A DNA stretch of 33,623 bases from a virus. The notes under the pieces are model-generated. The model was given only the letters and a program-made list of their open reading frames with translations, was not told the DNA's origin and ran no database searches. The stretch's first letter is position 1, and every line of letters starts with the position of its first letter. This document shows positions 7,613 through 30,062 of this stretch, piece by piece. A program made the position numbers and the translations under genes. Where the stretch lies: positions 1 to 33,623 of IMG/VR virus record IMGVR_UViG_3300042924_003284, one strand, 5' to 3'.

Positions 7613-8752
7613 TTATATCTGTTTGCCATTGCGCTTTATAATCAATGATGAATCAAGTTTACGCATCCTGTCAATGATAACTTGACAATACTTTGGTTCA
7701 AGCTCCAAACCAAAACAACGGCGTTTAAGTTGGTGAGCGGCTACCATTGTTGAGCCTGAGCCTAAGAATGGGTCTAACAATAAATTATAATCTTGAAAGT
7801 ATTCTAAAACATTATTTAAAAGTTCAATTGGCTTTTGGTGTGGATGCGGACTATCAATTCGTTTTTTTTGTTCCCTACTTATACTAAAAACATTGCCTCC
7901 AAATCTTGAATACTTTACATTTCCAGCCACTATAATTGCCTCCCATTGTTCACTCATTCCACCCGCTCCATTTAAACCTGCATTTTTTTTGTCCCATACT
8001 GCAATCGTTTTTAATTGCAAATTATTATTTTCAAGTGTTTGAATTGCTTCTTTAAATGTTCTCCATTGTAAAAAGAAAACATAAACATCGCAAACCCTTA
8101 AATTAAAAAAGTCGTTAACAACATTAAAATTTTCATCGCTTAAAATTGTTCTTACTCCTAATTGACCTCTTCCATATTTACCGCTTGAACCATTCCCGTA
8201 CGGCGGGTCTGTGAATACCATGTCCGCCTTTTCCCCGTTCATCAACCGTGCCACTGCGTCCGAGTCCGTGCTATCTCCACAAAGCAACCGATGCTCACCA
8301 ATCTCAAACAAGTCACCAATGACAATGTCCGTTTCCATGCCTCCCTCTGGGACTTCGTAATCATCTTCACTTGCCTCCAACTCCTCCACCATGTCAAACT
8401 GCGGTATCTCCAACCCCCACGCTTCCAAGTCCACCACGTCCCAATCGTTCGCAAGTGTGTCCCAGTCCCATGACCCCGTGTTTGCGTTTAAACGTATGTT
8501 CAATTCCTTTTCATCTGCCTCATTCAAGTCAACAATGACACATTCAATTTCCTTGATGCCAAGTTTCTTTAATTCACGGACGCGGAAATGACCGCCGACA
8601 ATGTACCCTGTTTGCTTGTTGAAAATAATGGGTTCAACCATGCCAAACTTTTCAAGGCTCTCCTTCAAATGCTTTTCCTGCTTTGCCGTGCTTTGCCGTG
8701 GGTTGTAAGGCGCGGGTATTAAATCGGCGATTTGCTTTTTTTCAATTATCAT
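7613..8752 (-). CDS. ParB-like domain fused to N6-adenine/N4-cytosine DNA methyltransferase
   Basis: A 379-aa two-domain protein. Residues 1-90 form a ParB/Srx-like domain with the characteristic GGHFRVR (53-59). Residues about 143-379 form an amino-methyltransferase with catalytic DPPYG (182-186) and, later in sequence, the SAM-binding FLGSG (329-333), a beta-class order. It probably methylates phage DNA to evade host restriction. No cognate endonuclease is nearby, so this is an orphan enzyme. The DNA between the two motifs (about 7780-8190) is far more AT-rich than either end, suggesting a swapped target-recognition segment. The start overlaps the preceding gene by four bases. Confidence 0.92.
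   Translation of the reverse strand: MIIEKKQIADLIPAPYNPRQSTAKQEKHLKESLEKFGMVEPIIFNKQTGYIVGGHFRVRELKKLGIKEIECVIVDLNEADEKELNIRLNANTGSWDWDTLANDWDVVDLEAWGLEIPQFDMVEELEASEDDYEVPEGGMETDIVIGDLFEIGEHRLLCGDSTDSDAVARLMNGEKADMVFTDPPYGNGSSGKYGRGQLGVRTILSDENFNVVNDFFNLRVCDVYVFFLQWRTFKEAIQTLENNNLQLKTIAVWDKKNAGLNGAGGMSEQWEAIIVAGNVKYSRFGGNVFSISREQKKRIDSPHPHQKPIELLNNVLEYFQDYNLLLDPFLGSGSTMVAAHQLKRRCFGLELEPKYCQVIIDRMRKLDSSLIIKRNGKQI
8681..8700. repeat. Tandem duplication of a 10-bp unit inside the methyltransferase gene
   Basis: The unit CTTTGCCGTG occurs twice in direct succession, within codons near residues 18-26 of the ParB-like domain. Twenty bases is not a multiple of three per unit, so the two copies encode different residues. 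It is likely a replication-slippage scar. Confidence 0.6.
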
Positions 8753-10942: not shown

Positions 10943-10970
10943 TTTAAAATATTTTTTAAGAATATATTTG

Positions 10971-10978
10971 TATCTTTG
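10971..10978 (+). promoter_or_regulatory. Bacteroidota-type promoter for the tRNA-like RNA and rightward block
   Basis: TATCTTTG fits TAnnTTTG, identical to the element of the divergent ssb promoter. The expected start point falls within a few bases of 10981-10985, exactly where the tRNA-like structure begins. Only a T-rich stretch at 10952-10957 stands where a -33 box would be. Confidence 0.55.
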
Positions 10979-10980
10979 TG

Positions 10981-11104
10981 GCGCAAGGTAGCTCAGCGGG
11001 TTAGAGCAACTGGCGACAACGGTTCGAGTCCGTTCCATACGAAAGTATGAGGTGTGTAGGGTAGCAAGCGAGTGTGTCGCGGGTTCGATTCCCGCCCTTG
11101 TTGC
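10981..11104 (+). ncRNA. tRNA-like RNA with two T arms and no normal anticodon arm
   Basis: Seen directly: a D-arm-like hairpin (GCTC/GAGC, 10991-11007), a perfect T arm (AACGG-TTCGAGT-CCGTT, 11018-11034), a GNRA-type hairpin (CATAC-GAAA-GTATG, 11036-11049) and a second perfect T arm (GCGGG-TTCGATT-CCCGC, 11079-11095). An acceptor-like pairing closes it (CAAGG 10984-10988 with CCTTG 11096-11100). Both T loops fit TTCRANY. A possible anticodon stem, ACTGG (11009-11013) with CGAGT (11069-11073), has one mismatch and would enclose a 55-nt loop. No CCA is encoded. It may be two recombined tRNA genes, a tRNA with an insertion, or a tRNA mimic. The first downstream gene starts 13 bases later. Confidence 0.55.
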
Positions 11105-11116
11105 AAAACAAAGCAA

Positions 11117-12117: not shown

Positions 12118-12125
12118 TATATTTG
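12118..12125 (+). promoter_or_regulatory. -7 promoter element of RNA copy 1
   Basis: TATATTTG matches TAnnTTTG and ends five bases before the first base of hairpin 1 of the downstream RNA element, so transcription would begin at that hairpin. There is no clear -33 box. Confidence 0.5.
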
Positions 12126-12130
12126 TAATG

Positions 12131-12232
12131 TTCTTTAAATTAAAGTTGAGGTTAATTTAAAGAGCTTTGAAGCAAAATCCACATTGTTTCATTTTGCCCC
12201 GATGAACCTCAACTCATTGGGGCATTTTTTTT
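12131..12232 (+). ncRNA. Kissing-hairpin RNA element, copy 1
   Basis: Hairpin 1 pairs 12131-12143 with 12152-12164 (12 Watson-Crick pairs plus a G-U) around the loop AGTTGAGG (12144-12151). A 30-nt linker follows, containing ATCCACATTGTTTCAT (12177-12192). Hairpin 2 pairs TGCCCCGATG (12195-12204) with CATTGGGGCA (12215-12224) around the loop AACCTCAACT (12205-12214), then eight Ts. The hairpin-1 loop is fully complementary to CCTCAACT in the hairpin-2 loop, extendable to ten pairs. A second copy at 14664 keeps the architecture with different loop sequences. The T tract ends six bases before the helicase ATG, so it could attenuate that gene or end an independent RNA of about 100 nt. The family is not recognised. 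Confidence 0.75.
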
Positions 12233-12238
12233 ATACTC

Positions 12239-14071
12239 ATGAAAAGGAATTACTCCGATTCAGAAAAAGCATTTTTATACAGACTTGCTGACGGCAAATG
12301 CCAGTTGTGTCAATGCGACCTTCCAAGGTTTTGGCATGCTGACCATGTTATACCTTTTAGCAAAGGAGGGATAACTTCATTAAACAATGCTCAGGCATTA
12401 TGTCCAACTTGTAACTTAAAAAAATCTAATAAAATGTTTAAACCCAGACAATGGCAAATAGAAGCCACTAAAAAATTCTATGAGGAAATTAAATCTAACA
12501 AAGTATTTTTACTTCATGCTGGAGTAGGCTCAGGAAAAACTTTGTGGGCTTCGTCAATTATAAAAAATTTCGTTGACGATGGATTTGATGTTGTTATTTT
12601 TAGTCCAAAAGATGCCATTAAAACAGATTGGGCTATTGAGTGTAAAAAATTTAATCTTGAAATTGATGCAAATTATTTGTTTAAATATCATTGGAAGCCT
12701 GACTTTCACGGTGTTTCACTTTGTTATCAAATTTTAAAAAATAATACTAATTCATTAAAAAACAAGATAACGAATAAGACCATTGTAGTTTTAGATGAAC
12801 ATCACCATGCCTCTGATTCTGGAAGTTGGGGGATTGAACTTGAAAATATTTGTGAAAACGCTGGGGTAATTTTATGTTTAACAGGAACTCCTTTTAGGAG
12901 CGATAATAGTAAAATACCTTTTGTAAAATATAAGGAAACAAAATCAAATGATATTGATGGTTGGGAAATTGAAACAGATTATTCCTACACGTATGCTCAA
13001 AGTGTAAAGGATCGTATTTGTTGCCCTACTTCATTTAGACCTATTGATGTAATTATTAATGGAGAAGGTGGTATTTTAATAGGCGAAGAAAATAAAAAAT
13101 ATTTAAATCAAATAATAGACGCCTCAAATGGAAATAGTAATTTTATTGACATTGCTTTTAATCAAGCTAACAACGAATTAAAAGGAATAAGAAACACTTA
13201 TTACCCTGAGGCAAAAGGTTTGATTATTGCCAATACCATTGAAGATGCTAAAAGTATTTTTAGTAATTTACAAAAGCAAAATATAAGTTGTTCTATAATT
13301 ACAAGTGACGCAGATTCAACTACTGAAACAATTAAAGAATTTAGGAATAATAATAAGCATTGGGTTGTAACGGTTCAAATGGTTTCCGAAGGTGTAAATA
13401 TCCCTCAAATACGCGTTATCCTGTATTTAAACAATATTACAACCAGGACATACTTTGAACAGGTAATGGGTAGAGGTGTAAGAAATTGCAAGGTTTACCA
13501 AAATGCAATAGATCATTGCTATTTTTATTATCCTAATTTTTCTTTATTTACTGAGGTTGCAGAAACTCTTGAAGCTGGCTATAAGCATTTTGTAATAGAC
13601 GAAAATAAAAGAATTAATACTGGATTAAGCGAAGGTTTAGAAAGAAAACCAAAAACAATACAAACTTTATTTGACGATATAATAGCTGGAAATCATGGTA
13701 TTATAAACAATGGATACAAGTTTACTGACCAAGAAATAGATGCTTTAAATCAAGTCAAAGATTTAAACTATGCTTTAGCAAGTATTTTTGAAAACATGAT
13801 TGCAAGAAATATTCAGAAAGATGAACCTCAGGAAAACAATAAAATAGATGAAATTCCTAAATACGAAAAAATTAAACTTGTAAAAAAGGAAATTCACAAA
13901 AGAGTTGGATATGCGATAAGGTTAGGTATTTACACTGAGTATCAAAACGCTCATTATAAATACAATGAAGCTGCAAATATTAAGGATCATAAAACTTGTA
14001 TGGACTTAAGATTATTAAATAAAAAATTACAAATCATTAACGATGACATCAACAATTTCACTAAGCACTAA
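12239..14071 (+). CDS. HNH endonuclease fused to an SF2 helicase
   Basis: A 610-aa protein. Residues 15-65 are an HNH domain with zinc-type cysteines (CQLC 21-24, CPTC 55-58) and HADHVIPF (33-40). Residues about 70-430 are an SF2 helicase/ATPase core: Walker A AGVGSGKT (94-101), motif II DEHH (186-189), motif III-like TGTPFR (215-220), motif V VSEGVNIP (382-389) and motif VI QVMGRGVR (408-415). The C-terminal 180 residues are helical. The combination couples DNA unwinding or translocation to cutting. A role in phage replication or recombination, or attack on host or rival DNA, is inferred. The DNA is AT-rich compared with genes after 14771. The RNA element copy 1 lies directly upstream. Confidence 0.9.
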   Translation: MKRNYSDSEKAFLYRLADGKCQLCQCDLPRFWHADHVIPFSKGGITSLNNAQALCPTCNLKKSNKMFKPRQWQIEATKKFYEEIKSNKVFLLHAGVGSGKTLWASSIIKNFVDDGFDVVIFSPKDAIKTDWAIECKKFNLEIDANYLFKYHWKPDFHGVSLCYQILKNNTNSLKNKITNKTIVVLDEHHHASDSGSWGIELENICENAGVILCLTGTPFRSDNSKIPFVKYKETKSNDIDGWEIETDYSYTYAQSVKDRICCPTSFRPIDVIINGEGGILIGEENKKYLNQIIDASNGNSNFIDIAFNQANNELKGIRNTYYPEAKGLIIANTIEDAKSIFSNLQKQNISCSIITSDADSTTETIKEFRNNNKHWVVTVQMVSEGVNIPQIRVILYLNNITTRTYFEQVMGRGVRNCKVYQNAIDHCYFYYPNFSLFTEVAETLEAGYKHFVIDENKRINTGLSEGLERKPKTIQTLFDDIIAGNHGIINNGYKFTDQEIDALNQVKDLNYALASIFENMIARNIQKDEPQENNKIDEIPKYEKIKLVKKEIHKRVGYAIRLGIYTEYQNAHYKYNEAANIKDHKTCMDLRLLNKKLQIINDDINNFTKH

Positions 14072-14651: not shown

Positions 14652-14659
14652 TATCTTTA
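14652..14659 (+). promoter_or_regulatory. -7-like promoter element of RNA copy 2
   Basis: TATCTTTA matches TAnnTTTG except for the last base and ends four bases before the first base of hairpin 1 (14664), close to the spacing in copy 1. There is no clear -33 box. Confidence 0.4.
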
Positions 14660-14663
14660 ATCA

Positions 14664-14760
14664 TTCTTTTGAACGAGGTGCAAGTCATTCAAAAGAACTT
14701 CGGGACAATATCCGCATTGTTTCATCTAACCCAGTAGCCTTGCACCTGCTGGGTTTTTTT
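14664..14760 (+). ncRNA. Kissing-hairpin RNA element, copy 2
   Basis: Hairpin 1 pairs TTCTTTTGAA (14664-14673) with TTCAAAAGAA (14688-14697) around a 14-nt loop holding AGGTGCAAG (14676-14684). A 30-nt linker carries ATCCGCATTGTTTCAT (14710-14725), 15 of 16 bases identical to copy 1. Hairpin 2 pairs AACCCAGT (14728-14735) with GCTGGGTT (14748-14755), including one G-U, around a loop holding CTTGCACCT (14739-14747), followed by a T tract. The two loops form nine perfect pairs. The T tract is followed by ATAC, as in copy 1, and the initiator ATG lies ten bases further. An attenuator, a self-contained small RNA, or both are possible. Confidence 0.75.
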
Positions 14761-14770
14761 ATACATTTTT

Positions 14771-15712
14771 ATGAATAAACTAAATAACAAAATCAAGGAT
14801 AATTTTACCATTATCCCCAATGACATTATCCGAAACAAAAGCCTGAGCGACCGCGCCCGTTTCATCTTTTGTTACATGGCTTCCATGCCTGACGACTGGA
14901 AATTTTATCAAGGCGTCATGGCAAAGGAACTTGGATACACAAAGGACACTTTGAGGAAATACATTGAGGAACTTTTGACAACGGGTTACCTTCATCGGGA
15001 ACAAAGAAGGGAGACGGGTAAATTTGATAGTTACGATTATACCTTGAATTTTACACCGAGTGGTAAAAAAGCCGACACGGTAAAAAGCCGCGACGGAGAA
15101 AAACCGACACGGGAAAAGTCGGCACTAACAAATAAAGACTTTGAACAAATAAAGATTATAACAAATAAAGACTTTGAACAAAGTATTGAAAATCATTCTG
15201 ATTTTACCGACTTCACAAAAGTTGATACAAATGATTTTACAAATATCCAAAGCCCCAAAGTGAACCCTTTTACCTTGATTGCAAAGCTTGAAAAAGAAAA
15301 AACTTCCGGTAAAAAAGAAAAAGCCGAGCGCCAGCCCTCCCCCATTTACGCCGCCTTCTCCGTGTTTTGCCAAACGTTTGAATCCTTATCTGGCGCCGCG
15401 TATCCCACGGACCAAAACGGACATTATATAATGATGCCCAAAGACGCAGGGCAAATGAAATTTCTTATGCAATACCTTGAAAAAGCTGATAAGCATGGCG
15501 ATACCATTGAGGCGTTGAAGGTATTTATTCAAGCGGCGTGGTCATTACCTGACAAATGGCTGAGGGCAAATTTCACCGTTGCCAACCTTTACTCCCAAGC
15601 CTCAAAGATAATTACCTCGTATCAAACCGCGAGCCCAGCGGCAAAGGACAAGGCGTATAATGATAAACTTCAGGAATTGCTTGCCGAAAGAATGGCAAAG
15701 TTTCAAGATTAA
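14771..15712 (+). CDS. Winged-helix phage replication initiator-like protein
   Basis: A 313-aa protein whose first 95 residues form a winged helix-turn-helix (FTIIPNDIIRNKSLSDRARF, then LGYTKDTLRKYIEELLTTGY and a wing with GKFDSYDYTLNF), typical of phage replisome organisers. A low-complexity linker around residues 96-190 contains a duplicated TNKDFEQ motif. The C-terminal part is helical (QMKFLMQYLEKADKHGDTI) and may contact helicase or a loader. It probably binds the phage origin. Direct DNA repeats inside the linker-coding region are candidate binding sites, recalling the lambda origin inside gene O. It is preceded by RNA copy 2. Confidence 0.8.
   Translation: MNKLNNKIKDNFTIIPNDIIRNKSLSDRARFIFCYMASMPDDWKFYQGVMAKELGYTKDTLRKYIEELLTTGYLHREQRRETGKFDSYDYTLNFTPSGKKADTVKSRDGEKPTREKSALTNKDFEQIKIITNKDFEQSIENHSDFTDFTKVDTNDFTNIQSPKVNPFTLIAKLEKEKTSGKKEKAERQPSPIYAAFSVFCQTFESLSGAAYPTDQNGHYIMMPKDAGQMKFLMQYLEKADKHGDTIEALKVFIQAAWSLPDKWLRANFTVANLYSQASKIITSYQTASPAAKDKAYNDKLQELLAERMAKFQD
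15126..15182 (+). repeat. Iteron-like repeats inside the initiator gene (candidate origin)
   Basis: The 12-mer AACAAATAAAGA occurs at 15127, 15144 and 15160, and AACAAA again at 15177, with periods of 17, 16 and 17 bases. Two perfect 24-bp direct copies span 15126-15149 and 15159-15182. The region is AT-rich and lies in the linker-coding part of the winged-helix initiator, as iterons do in lambda-type origins. The alternative is simple duplication of a linker peptide. Confidence 0.5.
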
Positions 15713-16710: not shown

Positions 16711-16744
16711 GGTGGGGTATAGAAATTATACCTCACTTTTTTTT
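16711..16744 (+). terminator. Intrinsic terminator after the replication operon
   Basis: GTGGGGTATA (16711-16720) pairs with TATACCTCAC (16726-16735), ten pairs including one G-U, around a five-base loop, followed by nine Ts. It ends the 14771-16687 unit. Confidence 0.85.
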
Positions 16745-16745
16745 A

Positions 16746-16804
16746 ATTTATTTTTGTAAATATTTTTTTGTTTCAATATTTAATATTAAATTTACGTATT
16801 GAAA
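16746..16804 (+). promoter_or_regulatory. 59-bp promoter/operator repeat, copy 1
   Basis: A 59-bp segment that recurs at 21936-21994 with a single mismatch (16770). It contains TATTTTTG (16749-16756), which fits the TAnnTTTG promoter -7 element, then a region with nested symmetry: TTTCAATA and TATTGAAA as outer arms and the 12-bp palindrome TTTAATATTAAA inside. Position between a terminator and the next gene supports promoter plus operator or a leader hairpin. Confidence 0.6.
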
Positions 16805-20960: not shown

Positions 20961-20994
20961 ATGTCCGCGTTTTTCGATGCGGACATTTTTTTTT
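20961..20994 (+). terminator. Intrinsic terminator
   Basis: ATGTCCGC (20961-20968) pairs with GCGGACAT (20979-20986) around a ten-base loop, followed by nine Ts. It closes the 18219-20927 unit. Confidence 0.85.
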
Positions 20995-21082
20995 ATTTTA
21001 TTATTGTAAATATTCTTTATTATAAATAATTATATATATTTTTACAAAACGAAATTTATTTACCAGTTTTAAAACCAATTTT

Positions 21083-21925
21083 ATGAAAGAAAAGATCATT
21101 GATTACGTCCCACAAAATAAGCGGCTGCCATATCAGGTAGCCGCAGGCGTTGGCGTTGCCTTCGTGGTTGGGTTGATTTACAGCCCAATAAGCACCCAGT
21201 ATCATTACACCTCATTCGTGCCAGTCATTGAGCGCGACACGGTGTATGTTCACAAAATAACCACGCTTACATTTCCTGCAAAGGAAGAAAAAAGCGAAGT
21301 CAACGAATTGGCGTATGGCTCACGGTCATACGGCTGGGAAATACGAAAAATGAATATTCACGAATTAAGGCGAAATCTGGAAGGCAAAGGATTCAGAAAC
21401 CTCGATAAAATAGACTTGTTTAAAATGCGTCGTATATGGCTTGCCTATTCATACGAATCCATGCTTATGAATGTACACCACCTGACAGACTTCCCAGTGT
21501 CCATGATCTATTCTTTCTTCATCATTGAGGCGACGACCTCAGGCGTTGAAACCGAACTTTGGAGAAAACACGCCAACGCTGGCGGCGTAAAGGCTTTGAA
21601 AAATCAAAAGTCGGTGACGTACAAAACACGGGAGGTCATTCGCGGGCGTGACAAGTACATTCGCGCCAAGTTCATGAGCGCAAGTTCCACGGAAGAAGGT
21701 ATGAAGCTTTGGGCAGGCGTTTTGAACTCTGGGAGATACGCGGAATGTAAAAAGGCAAATTACAAGATGAAAGGGATCAGGTTGTATGAAAGCATTTGTA
21801 AATGCGTTTACAAATCAGGGTATCATACGGATCGCGATTATAAATTCCGTGCTTCGCTTATGGCTGAGTTCTGGGAATTGAAAAAGAATCATTACCCATT
21901 AAAAGGGAAAAGAGATGAATTTTAA
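21083..21925 (+). CDS. Membrane-anchored glucosaminidase-like peptidoglycan hydrolase
   Basis: A 280-aa protein with one N-terminal membrane segment (about residues 17-34, VAAGVGVAFVVGLIYSP) and an outward spacer. From about residue 125 there is a domain resembling the FlgJ/lysozyme-type glucosaminidase family: FFIIEATTSGVETELW with candidate catalytic Glu 149, then HANAGGVK in place of the usual NNxFGIK, and later LNSGRYAECKK. It would cut glycan strands in the periplasm. It lies in the early/replication block, not the lysis cassette, so it may remodel the wall during infection or exclude superinfection. Upstream 20995-21082 is AT-rich with a weak promoter-like stretch. Confidence 0.7.
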   Translation: MKEKIIDYVPQNKRLPYQVAAGVGVAFVVGLIYSPISTQYHYTSFVPVIERDTVYVHKITTLTFPAKEEKSEVNELAYGSRSYGWEIRKMNIHELRRNLEGKGFRNLDKIDLFKMRRIWLAYSYESMLMNVHHLTDFPVSMIYSFFIIEATTSGVETELWRKHANAGGVKALKNQKSVTYKTREVIRGRDKYIRAKFMSASSTEEGMKLWAGVLNSGRYAECKKANYKMKGIRLYESICKCVYKSGYHTDRDYKFRASLMAEFWELKKNHYPLKGKRDEF

Positions 21926-21935
21926 ATTATTTTGC

Positions 21936-21994
21936 ATTTATTTTTGTAAATATTTTTTTATTTCAATATTTAATATTAAATTTACGTATTGAAA
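21936..21994 (+). promoter_or_regulatory. 59-bp promoter/operator repeat, copy 2
   Basis: Identical to 16746-16804 except at 21960. It contains TATTTTTG (21939-21946) as a -7 element and the nested inverted repeat with arms TTTCAATA and TATTGAAA around the palindrome TTTAATATTAAA. It lies between the glucosaminidase stop and the next ATG. Confidence 0.6.
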
Positions 21995-26153: not shown

Positions 26154-29100
26154 TTATTTAATTGCAAGCCAAAATATTTTAACGCTTTTACTTGAAGCTT
26201 CTGTACCGTCATAATTCCATGCTTGCACGGAAAAAGTTGTATCGTTTTTGCCATAAACTTCAAATATTATTTTTTCTGCTCCAGCTAAACCAGCCGAAGT
26301 TACCAATACACTTGTTGGTGTTGCTCCAAGTCCATGAGTAACGGTGAATATTGCTGAGGGTGACCCTGTTGTTGCAGTTGTTTCACCCCGTGTCATTAAC
26401 CCTGTTTGCGCCACCGTTGTAACCTCGCCCACCACGTTGCTCCCGTCTTTTCCGAGTAAACTTGTCGGCGTTGCCGTTACCGTGTTTATTCTTACTTCAC
26501 CGTTTACATCAAGTGTTTTCGTCGGTGATGCGTAACCAATGCCCACGCGATCCGTCGAGGCATCCACGAAAACCATATTTGCGTTGCCGTCGCTTTCCAC
26601 GCGAAAGTCGGCGTCGGCTGAGCCTTCATTGAACACGGCTGAGCCATGAACTTCGAGTTTTGCGGCTGGATTTGTTGTACCAATACCAATATTACCCGAA
26701 GAATTTATATTTAATCTAAATGCAGCGTTTTCAATGTCGTAAATAAATAAGTCTTGTAAATTATTTGTAGCAAAACTTCTTCCAATTAAAAATCCTGATG
26801 TTATTCCATTTGAAGCATTATTTAAAAGTATAGAATTTTGATTACCTCCTGCTATATTTAACCTACTTGTAAGAATTGTACCATTGACATCAAGCTTCGC
26901 GTTTGGCGAAGTTGTACCTACGCCTATATTACCATCATTCTTTACCCATAATCTATTAATATTATTTGTTACATCATATATGCCAAATCCCGAAGTTGTT
27001 AGTGTTCCATTAAATAAATAAAAACTATTAACACTTGAAATAGTATCAAATAATATTCCATTTTGAGCAATACCGCCTCTTAAAAATATTTTTGCATTAT
27101 CATTTGTTTTTAAATCTAATAAATAATTTGGATCAATATTTCCTATGCCTATTTTGGTTCCTGAATCATAAACTAAAGAATTTCCTAAAATTCTTGTTCC
27201 TGTAAATTTTGGTATGTAATTTGTCGTTCCACTTCCAGTAAGATAAGTCCCTGCCGCCGTGCCCGTGCGCAAGTAATTTGTAAGCATAGAAGCCGTGTCA
27301 AACCTTGTTACAAGGAAATTGGTATCAGCAAGTAAACTTGATGAAGCAAGGCTCAACCCTGCGCCCAATGTCACCTGACCCAAGTCACCGTCTGCATCTG
27401 CACCGACAAGGCGCGTGGGTGCGTCGGTGGTTAAATCCGTAATCCTTACTTCGCCTGCAACTTCAAGGTCACGGTTTGGCGCATTCGTTTTTATCCCTGC
27501 TTTCGAGGCTGCGGCAATCGTTGTTCCCGTGCCACTTGCGCCCGTGAAAAATAAAACGTTTTGGTAAACGCCTTGATTTGAGCCGTTGTTGGTGGGAAGG
27601 TCTACTTGGTTGCCTATGGCGACGTTGGCGGCGGCGGCGGCACTGATGTTGTCGGCGGCGTTGCGGCCTATGGCGATGTTATTCGAACCAGTGAGCGTGT
27701 CGGCAACGGTTGCATTGTAGCCAGCCCTTTGCCCTAAAAACATATTATATTGACCTTGACGCGCATTCTCTCCAGCGCTTTCGCCAATACCTATATTGTA
27801 ACTATTTCTTGTATTAGATAGTGCTTGAAAGCCTATTGCAATGTTATAATTAGAAATTCTATTCAAATACAATGTCCTATATGCACCGATTGCAATGTTG
27901 AACAATCCAGATGCATTTGTAAAACCAGATTCTTCACCCAGAAATATATTGTTTGAACCGCTGGTATTATTTCTGCCAGAACTATTGCCAATAAAAAGAT
28001 TAATGTTTCCTGATGTATTTGCATAGCCAGCGCGAAGTCCGAAAAAATTGTTATTTGAGCCAGTGGTATTTGAATTCCCGCTTTCAAGTCCGAAAAAATT
28101 GTTATTTGAGCCAGTGGTATTTGAATACCCGGAATAACTGCCAAAAAAATTGTTATTTGATGCAGTAGTTAATGAAAAGCCAGCATATAACCCAAAACAA
28201 TTATTTGAAAAGCCAGTGGTGTTTCTTATGCCGCTCTCAAAACCGAAAAAATTATTATAATAACCTGAAGTGTTATTCTGACCCGCATTTGTTCCAAAAA
28301 AATTATTGTTAAATCCGGTAGTATTATTTCTGCCAGCATTTGCTCCGAAAAAATTATTTGATGTTCCGGTAGCATATCTGCCGGCGTTCGTACCAAAACC
28401 AATCGTAGCTGCTGATGGCATTTGAATGGAACTGTAAATAGTTGCGTCGTTATCGTTTTGCCCTGCCAATAAAACAGAAGCTGGATTTGCAATTTGCACA
28501 ACGCTAACATTATCTAAATTACCCGTAAACGTAGAAGTTGTAAAGCGAAATCCACCTGTTGCGCTTGTTGGTAATAAAACCACCACGTTTGCCGTTGCAT
28601 TGTGAGTTGGCAGTGTGTAAGTCACATTACCAATCGCCGCCGTCAGCGTTCCAGCGCTATAACTTGCAAGCGTGTACGTAATTTCATAAGCATTCCCATT
28701 TGTAATAGTCAAGGCTGGCGTGTAAGTTAATGTTCCCGTCGCTGCCGTTGCTACCGCTACCGTTCCGTTGAATGTCCAACCCGTGCCGCGTGTCCAATTC
28801 GTTGTATCTGCGCCAAATGTTTGATTTGTCACAACTGTTGTTCTTACAGGCTCTTGACTATTTTTTATAATTAAGTTTGCACCCGATGGTACGGTGGTCA
28901 TGTTGATACCAAGCGACTTGTTGGCTGCGCTCCAACGTAAAGCAGTGTCCGAAACAACGCTGCTACTTGAATTAAAATACGCCACCTGCCCACTTGTTCC
29001 GCTGATTTGATTATCCCGTGCGAAGGCTGAGGTATCACTTACCAAAAGGGCTTCGGTTGTATCTCTCCATAAACCACCTCTGTAATACAAGGAAGCCCTG

Positions 29101-30062
29101 TCAACGGGTGAGGTAATTGAAACATCATGAAGCTCATTCAATTTATAACCCGATGCCACCCGTATGGCTATTGTTCCGTTGTTCACATGGCTATTAATAC
29201 AAAAGCCAATAGGCATATCAATGTTTGGCGCAATAGGTTCAACGTCTGTCCAAACGCCTGCCACCGTTGGCGAAGGATAAAGGATTGCACCAGCCGCAAA
29301 AGTATCAGTGTTAACTTGTCTTATTTTGCCAAAGGAAATAACGTACCCATCTTCACCATCCGTCAAATCATGTGCCGTTATTCCAAGTAAATATTTTGCA
29401 TCTATTGAACCATTGGCGATAAATTTCGCAACCGTTATTCGCCCACTTGCCCCAACCGTGCCATTGGCGTAAACAATGCTCCCTTTGGTAATTGTTGAGC
29501 CTGTTTGATTTTTAACAAGCCAAAAGTTTTTGAATCCAAGTTCATTGGGTACATTGTCATTTAATCCAAGTACCACCGTTGCTAAATCCGAATCCCAACG
29601 CATTTTTGCCGTGTCCACGTTGTTCGTCGGTACATTGACATTGAAAAACAATGAATCCACGGGCTGAGTGAAAGCCGAACCGCCACCGCTGCCAACTAAA
29701 TTCCAAACGTTGGAAGTAAAATCAAATGAATAAAATTTAAGGTTTACCGTGTCAAGAATCACCCATGCACTTTGATTGTTTATTGGTTGAATGGAAGCCG
29801 TGTCACCAAGTGAACCGCGCCATGTCAGCCCGTCGCCCGTGGTTTGAAAACCAAGGCGTTGTTTGTTTAATGTATTTGGGAATTGCGCGAAAAGGCTGAG
29901 GGAAAGGAATAAAAAAAGAATTGAAGGCAATGGTTTTTTGCCTCCAATCTTTCTAATTATGCTACTCCCCAGTTTAAGCAATACTTGTTCCACTAATATT
30001 TCACCCACGCGCCCCAATGTTTTTAAAAAACGTCTTTCTTTCTTTGGTTTTATTTCGCTCAT
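26154..30062 (-). CDS. Giant tail-fibre/adhesin-like protein, 1302 aa
   Basis: Residues 1-42 are basic and helical (starting MSEIKPKKERRFLKTLGRVG), then LPSILFLFLSLSLFAQ (45-60) looks like a membrane or signal segment of Bacteroidota type. The body is beta-rich. A 17-residue repeat block (NNFFGxxAGxxNTTG type, coded by 27712-28358) resembles trimeric fibre heads. It is flanked by several GIGxxxPxxxLDVxG units common in tail fibres before an S74 chaperone. No S74 domain is seen; the C-terminus (FTVTHGLGATPTSVLVT ... FWLAIK) is a receptor-binding-like cap. Host adhesion is inferred. The export-like segment is unexpected for a virion fibre. The start overlaps the connector gene by four bases. 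Confidence 0.85.
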   Translation of the reverse strand: MSEIKPKKERRFLKTLGRVGEILVEQVLLKLGSSIIRKIGGKKPLPSILFLFLSLSLFAQFPNTLNKQRLGFQTTGDGLTWRGSLGDTASIQPINNQSAWVILDTVNLKFYSFDFTSNVWNLVGSGGGSAFTQPVDSLFFNVNVPTNNVDTAKMRWDSDLATVVLGLNDNVPNELGFKNFWLVKNQTGSTITKGSIVYANGTVGASGRITVAKFIANGSIDAKYLLGITAHDLTDGEDGYVISFGKIRQVNTDTFAAGAILYPSPTVAGVWTDVEPIAPNIDMPIGFCINSHVNNGTIAIRVASGYKLNELHDVSITSPVDRASLYYRGGLWRDTTEALLVSDTSAFARDNQISGTSGQVAYFNSSSSVVSDTALRWSAANKSLGINMTTVPSGANLIIKNSQEPVRTTVVTNQTFGADTTNWTRGTGWTFNGTVAVATAATGTLTYTPALTITNGNAYEITYTLASYSAGTLTAAIGNVTYTLPTHNATANVVVLLPTSATGGFRFTTSTFTGNLDNVSVVQIANPASVLLAGQNDNDATIYSSIQMPSAATIGFGTNAGRYATGTSNNFFGANAGRNNTTGFNNNFFGTNAGQNNTSGYYNNFFGFESGIRNTTGFSNNCFGLYAGFSLTTASNNNFFGSYSGYSNTTGSNNNFFGLESGNSNTTGSNNNFFGLRAGYANTSGNINLFIGNSSGRNNTSGSNNIFLGEESGFTNASGLFNIAIGAYRTLYLNRISNYNIAIGFQALSNTRNSYNIGIGESAGENARQGQYNMFLGQRAGYNATVADTLTGSNNIAIGRNAADNISAAAAANVAIGNQVDLPTNNGSNQGVYQNVLFFTGASGTGTTIAAASKAGIKTNAPNRDLEVAGEVRITDLTTDAPTRLVGADADGDLGQVTLGAGLSLASSSLLADTNFLVTRFDTASMLTNYLRTGTAAGTYLTGSGTTNYIPKFTGTRILGNSLVYDSGTKIGIGNIDPNYLLDLKTNDNAKIFLRGGIAQNGILFDTISSVNSFYLFNGTLTTSGFGIYDVTNNINRLWVKNDGNIGVGTTSPNAKLDVNGTILTSRLNIAGGNQNSILLNNASNGITSGFLIGRSFATNNLQDLFIYDIENAAFRLNINSSGNIGIGTTNPAAKLEVHGSAVFNEGSADADFRVESDGNANMVFVDASTDRVGIGYASPTKTLDVNGEVRINTVTATPTSLLGKDGSNVVGEVTTVAQTGLMTRGETTATTGSPSAIFTVTHGLGATPTSVLVTSAGLAGAEKIIFEVYGKNDTTFSVQAWNYDGTEASSKSVKIFWLAIK
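27712..28358 (-). repeat. 51-bp tandem repeat block coding for the fibre head
   Basis: About twelve units, most of 17 codons, encode NNFFG-AG-NTTG-like sequence. Two adjacent units share an identical 41-bp stretch (28035-28075 and 28086-28126), offset by exactly 51 bases. The unit period and protein coding explain the repeat; no spacers are present. Confidence 0.8.

Follow-up and report, generated by a model that had tools for sequence, protein, structure and literature searches.

A conserved phage leader RNA with matched kissing loops heads the replication-initiator operon and may act as an attenuator

What does a small structured RNA contribute when it stands immediately before the replication initiator gene of a phage? 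This question is raised by the IMG/VR virus record IMGVR_UViG_3300042924_003284, whose entire 33,623 nucleotides are referred to here as the window. The record represents a tailed phage, in which terminase, portal, endolysin, and initiator genes are recognized, and it carries two copies of one leader element on the plus strand (copy 1, positions 12118 to 12232; copy 2, positions 14652 to 14760). The original prediction held that the elements precede two DNA replication genes and that the RNA pair coordinates replication timing or dosage.

Copy 2 begins with a −7 promoter box, TATCTTTA (14652 to 14659), assigned from the sequence and the box profile of the family, and continues after a gap of 4 nucleotides as an RNA element (14664 to 14755, plus strand) made up of three hairpins: one at the 5′ end, a small one in the middle, and that of an intrinsic terminator. 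In the minimum free energy fold, hairpin 1 (14664 to 14697) has the stem 14664-14673/14688-14697, and the middle hairpin (14702 to 14723) has the stem 14702-14709/14716-14723. The terminator (14728 to 14760) folds into the stem 14728-14737/14746-14755 with an 8-nucleotide loop, followed by a U-tract. The loop of hairpin 1 contains a 9-nucleotide code, AGGTGCAAG (14676 to 14684), that is the exact reverse complement of an anti-code, CTTGCACCT (14739 to 14747), located in and beside the terminator loop. Copy 2 folds at −31.1 kcal/mol, compared with −18.6 ± 3.1 kcal/mol for shuffled sequences (z = −4.1; 0 of 200 shuffles), energies that leave the kissing pseudoknot out of the count. The ATG of the next gene (14771 to 15712, plus strand) lies approximately 15 nucleotides past the start of the U-tract. 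This gene encodes an HTH_36 replication initiator-like protein (Pfam PF13730, 2.4e-6; PHROG 270, replication initiation, 9.9e-15), and the predicted placement of copy 2 directly before an initiator was correct.

Copy 1 has the same layout. Its −7 box, TATATTTG (12118 to 12125, plus strand; assigned from the sequence and the promoter profile), again ends 4 nucleotides before hairpin 1, in agreement with the prediction that an upstream sequence element stands at a similar distance in both copies. Hairpin 1 (12130 to 12165) and the intrinsic terminator (12195 to 12232) were placed from the fold of an identical copy (L008:297), and the middle hairpin (12168 to 12191) was placed from the fold and from covariation. 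The code AGTTGAGGTT (12144 to 12153) matches only the terminator loop, where the anti-code AACCTCAACT (12205 to 12214) pairs with it over 10 nucleotides. The two copies were predicted to be insulated from each other, and the duplex energies bear this out: the cognate pairs reach −13.1 kcal/mol (copy 1) and −13.6 kcal/mol (copy 2), while the cross pairs reach −3.5 and −3.7 kcal/mol. Neither code has a site elsewhere in the window beyond its own terminator loop. The gene behind copy 1 (12239 to 14071, plus strand) matches Pfam HNH (1.1e-10), ResIII (3.8e-14), and Helicase_C (1.1e-9), and its product also matches PHROG 16, DNA helicase (5.4e-33). Judged by these domains, it is an HNH protein fused to ResIII/Helicase_C and not a plain replicative helicase.

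To place the element in a wider family, we gathered relatives with a pattern scan for the shared middle motif, with two structural patterns, and with protein searches that used the initiator and the HNH-helicase as queries. A covariance model was built from the three stems and was blind to the kissing interaction. This model scored 157 places in viral contigs at 80 bits or more, including some double counts from overlapping loci of one contig, and everything else at 37 bits or less. In total, 89 distinct sequences occupy 124 contig places; these comprise 88 distinct model sequences and one distant member, L104, which was added by hand. The L104 element (L104:5745-5875) differs in stem sequence, kisses over 9 bp (TGTGGAACC), and precedes an initiator that is 46% identical; the family is thus broader than the covariance model (R1).

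Conservation was assessed in an alignment of 66 distinct elements, which were selected for at least 7 exact kissing pairs. The full structure is paired in 97.0% of cells, compared with 78.2% in shuffles and 39 to 50% when the structure is slid by 1 to 3 columns, and 29 of its 33 pairs have changed on both sides. Each hairpin contributes to this signal: the stem of hairpin 1 is paired in 96.5% of cells (8 of 10 pairs changed on both sides), the middle hairpin (consensus GRRRCAA...TTGTTTC) is paired in 95.2% (5 of 7 pairs), and all 9 pairs of the terminator stem covary on both sides. The loop of the middle hairpin, which is the main unpaired stretch, is not conserved. Among 1,709 stem cells of the training alignment, 159 are G·U and 11 are A·C. 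This strong excess indicates selection on the sense RNA, not on DNA or an antisense transcript, and it disfavors a hairpin function at the DNA level.

The most stringent feature of the family is the kiss. A perfect Watson-Crick helix of 7 to 10 bp between the loop of hairpin 1 and the terminator loop is present in all 88 distinct model sequences, including the two from the window, and in L104. Because the model was blind to this pairing, its presence in every sequence excludes chance. Approximately 27 code spellings occur, some of which are longer or shorter forms of one code, and the cognate duplexes average −10.4 kcal/mol versus −2.8 kcal/mol for noncognate pairs, which mostly have 2 to 4 complementary letters in common. 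G·U and A·C are both found in 0 of 460 kissing cells; the alignment was preselected for at least 7 exact pairs, and model matches outside the alignment agree with this count. Across the sequences compared, the kiss is the strictest part of the element, with a code that changes freely and wobble pairs that are apparently never allowed. The terminator loop is 8 nucleotides long in 72 of the 89 sequences, and 7 of the 8 nucleotides kiss, a geometry in which both the kiss and the terminator stem can form at once. The hallmark of the family is an intrinsic terminator whose loop has to match a loop further upstream without a mismatch, and the approximately 27 natural matched loop pairs provide a resource for work on the effect of loop-loop pairing on intrinsic termination.

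We found no Rfam family above its gathering threshold for the element; the only such match in the window was to the tRNA model, and at E values of up to 10 the element region gave only subthreshold, chance-like matches. The element therefore belongs to an RNA family that is absent from Rfam. The Skipping-rope motif and other candidate RNA motifs had neither literature nor Rfam support. No named phage was related to the window at the nucleotide level. Distant relatives of the initiator occur in Flavobacterium phage tant8-1 and Croceibacter phage P2559S; in their annotated operons the initiator is overlapped by the gene ahead of it, and so no element directly precedes the initiator. A model search of Bacteroidota genomes (395 plus 10), which was shallow in that few candidates were scored per genome, returned no copies, and a pattern scan of the genome collection returned no family member, as the loci it brought up were free of the element in the structural scan. 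This survey adds an uncatalogued RNA family, seen here only in phages.

The sequence upstream of the hairpins points to both a transcription start and a host. Promoters of Flavobacterium johnsoniae have the consensus TAHHTTTG, with transcription starting 4 to 5 nucleotides downstream and AT-rich blocks near −18 and −28 (PMC6847099). All 89 family members carry a box of the form TANNTTTR, and the family promoter profile agrees with that of F. johnsoniae in its −7 box, its AT-rich blocks, and a start 4 to 5 nucleotides past the box. By the F. johnsoniae start rule, the leader RNA begins at the first base of hairpin 1, which puts the predicted start of the copy 2 RNA at approximately 14664. Both the promoter type and the nearest relatives with names suggest that the host belongs to the Bacteroidota.

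We then examined the genes that follow the element. The ATG of an open reading frame of at least 60 amino acids lies within 30 nucleotides of 44 of 44 distinct element terminators (median, 15), compared with 29 of 153 other terminators of the same contigs (median, 292). The distance from terminator to start codon is as a rule 11 to 24 nucleotides, and unrelated gene families keep equal spacing behind the element. Since the −7 box precedes the terminator and the gap behind the terminator is too short for a promoter, the next gene would have to be reached by readthrough. Counted by contig places, this gene is an HTH_36 initiator in 44 and a member of a ParB-like N6 methylase family in 43; rarer neighbors are an HNH-ResIII helicase (8), an HNH/AP2 endonuclease (8), a Dam-type methylase (7), and a small protein without a Pfam match (7), followed by MUG113 (GIY-YIG-type), PDDEXK-like, and other proteins (1 to 2 each). 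The PDDEXK-like label is our own reading of a sequence that has no Pfam match. One code can precede several gene families: GTAGCAG is found before methylase, HNH-helicase, and initiator families, and GCACTAC also precedes several. In the phage record that includes loci L069 and L391, one element has the code GTGATAG, and a second, with the code GTAGACA (L391:372-500), stands before a MUG113 gene. The window itself encodes a ParB-like N6 DNA methylase on the minus strand (7613 to 8752; PHROG 498, 3.1e-86), the same general kind of protein as the slot occupants in related phages.

Synteny of the element with replication genes, which the original prediction had proposed to compare, holds at the level of the operon. 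All initiator loci (46 of 46) have an element upstream of the initiator and on its strand, a count that shows that the initiator has an element more than that the element needs an initiator, as most loci were fetched via the initiator. It stands directly before the initiator in 20 of these loci and behind 1 to 3 cargo genes in the other 26. In 44 of the 46, unbroken, tightly packed, codirectional open reading frames fill the interval, which indicates that the element heads the transcription unit of the initiator; an initiator relative is present in 89 of 92 element loci. The link to replication is thus upheld for copy 2 and for the family but not for copy 1, which by comparison with related loci heads a variable cargo slot. 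The HNH-helicase is one of many occupants of this slot, the others being ParB-like N6 and Dam methylases and HNH/AP2 and GIY-YIG nucleases, and the description of two DNA replication genes does not hold. Coordination by the RNA pair is likewise not supported: larger phage records have one or two elements each, and many phages have only one, so that a pair is not required. An effect of the element on timing or dosage is plausible from this geometry.

The element combines a conserved fold, a strict kiss, a −7 box, and a fixed spacing to the ATG, and it stands where the initiator operon begins. We consider it rather probable that it works as a portable module of promoter, leader, and terminator. 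Such a module would attenuate the operon that follows, and the kiss would lock both ends of the RNA. Host RNA polymerase would start at hairpin 1, make the middle hairpin, and then encounter a strong intrinsic terminator, whose loop would kiss the loop of hairpin 1. Most transcripts would stop as a stable RNA of approximately 90 nucleotides, and a minority would read through, possibly in a regulated manner, so that the initiator is expressed behind copy 2 and the cargo gene behind copy 1. Such attenuation would meter or delay genes whose products may be harmful or wasteful in excess, such as initiators, DNA methylases, and nucleases. Before the 3′ arm of the terminator is made, its 5′ arm has a mean alternative pairing of 0.32 (highest member, 0.86), compared with 0.99 in the full RNA; we see no convincing antiterminator pairing, and termination would be the default. 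Given its fit with the terminator stem, the kiss is more likely to help termination than to hinder it, although pairing of the nascent loop could instead slow terminator formation. The operon could also be fed by upstream promoters. These roles are all read from sequence, and they suggest that Bacteroidota phages may control initiator dosage at the RNA level. To our knowledge, little detail is available on gene control in these phages.

Leaders with related architectures suggest how else the element might act. In plasmid pT181, a terminator-containing leader stands before the replication initiator gene, as it does here. Attenuators derived from pT181 use loop-loop pairing as one of their specificity elements (PMC3753616). 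In the RNA I/RNA II system of ColE1, variable loops likewise pair with their own partner, and loop changes can set compatibility (PMC9458437). In pT181, however, the leader is the target of a distinct antisense RNA, whereas the partner loop of the element lies in cis, and the terminator 5′ arm of the element shows no antiterminator pairing of the pT181 type. ColE1 uses two transcripts from opposite strands; both loops of the element are on one transcript, in two hairpins of which one is a terminator. The CI RNA of phage P4 comes from a leader that terminates upstream of replication genes and contains internal complementarity (PMC4825925). The element resembles the P4 leader in being a replication gene leader with predicted premature termination and RNA-RNA complementarity inside the leader. 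P4 CI RNA undergoes processing, and its pairing partners, seqA and seqC, lie outside CI, while the partners in the element are apical loops of one short RNA, one of them the terminator loop. The element also lacks an Rfam match, and integrase is absent from the 18 phage records examined, which argues against lysogeny and weakens P4-type immunity as the main explanation.

By analogy with P4 CI RNA and ColE1 RNA I, the terminated leader might act in trans: it would accumulate with phage copy number, kiss nascent leaders of the same code, and repress (or release) initiator operons within that cell, those of coinfecting phages with a matching code among them, so that the codes would serve as incompatibility groups. 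Pairing through variable loops would explain the variation of the code, and the many strictly complementary codes, the energy gap between cognate and noncognate pairs, and the position at the head of a replication operon fit this reading. It is also favored by two near-identical elements, L034 and L048, that differ in 4 of 14 code columns (with compensation) and in 2 of 81 other columns. Over all pairs, however, code divergence is similar to that of the rest of the element, so we rejected diversifying selection on it. The partners lie only 45 to 55 nucleotides apart within one RNA, where pairing in cis should win, and the missing integrases give no sign of prophage immunity. Nor does the lack of shared codes within a genome help: none of the 20 two-element combinations has matching codes, but shuffled draws also lack a match in 12.5% of cases when codes are pooled and in 65% when position is kept. 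The absence is not significant and gives no support to selection for different codes in one genome or for insulation. We therefore give a trans-acting regulator only a modest chance. A self-addressed code, in which the private loop pair limits a leader to leaders of the same code both in cis and in trans, seems unlikely to us; if true, it would tie initiator output to the dosage of its own genome and exclude coinfecting phages with the same code.

An independent, stable small RNA with its own promoter and terminator would account for the compact form of the element and for predicted ends that both lie in kissing hairpins. Its targets would lie elsewhere, the kiss would confer nuclease resistance, and the neighboring gene would be incidental. 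The short spacing to the ATG, kept before many unrelated genes and not behind other terminators, the unconserved middle loop, and codes that match nothing else in the phage make this quite improbable. Type III toxin-antitoxin systems (ToxIN) share with the element the order of promoter, structured RNA, terminator, and a gene reached by readthrough. The element has a single RNA copy per gene and no tandem antitoxin repeats, and the downstream genes scanned gave no ToxN family match, their families being initiators, methylases, and nucleases. The attenuating module that we favor could also be mobile. Promoter-early stem-loops (PeSLs) of T4-type phages are small, repeated promoter and terminator stem-loop units associated with gene shuffling (as cited in PMC4503421). 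They resemble the element in being a repeated unit before exchangeable genes, but their host promoter type differs. We know of no covarying loop-loop pair in PeSLs. A mobile regulatory cassette of this kind, through which early genes are exchanged by recombination, would fit the occurrence of one code before different gene families and a slot occupied by homing-type nucleases and methylases. It would explain the mobility of the slot but neither the strict kiss nor the conserved position before the initiator and is very improbable as the main explanation; as it is compatible with attenuation, both can hold.

Three further features of the window were recorded. A tRNA-like RNA of approximately 122 nucleotides lies within 10960 to 11105 (Rfam tRNA model, 37 bits), where ARAGORN makes no tRNA call; it shows two apparent T-arm motifs (GGTTCGAGTCC and GGGTTCGATTCCCG), is directly preceded by a possible −7 box, and may be a degenerate or extended tRNA. 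A 90-bp intergenic repeat (16715 to 16804 and 21905 to 21994; 84% identical) contains an inverted repeat (TTTCAATA...TATTGAAA); each copy precedes a plus-strand gene, a weaker third copy lies at 20965 to 21054, and the repeat probably represents another type of shared control region. Finally, 51-bp tandem repeats (27936 to 28375) within a 1,302-amino-acid open reading frame (26154 to 30062) encode 17-residue repeats rich in NNFFG, which resemble those of tail fibre or adhesin-like proteins.
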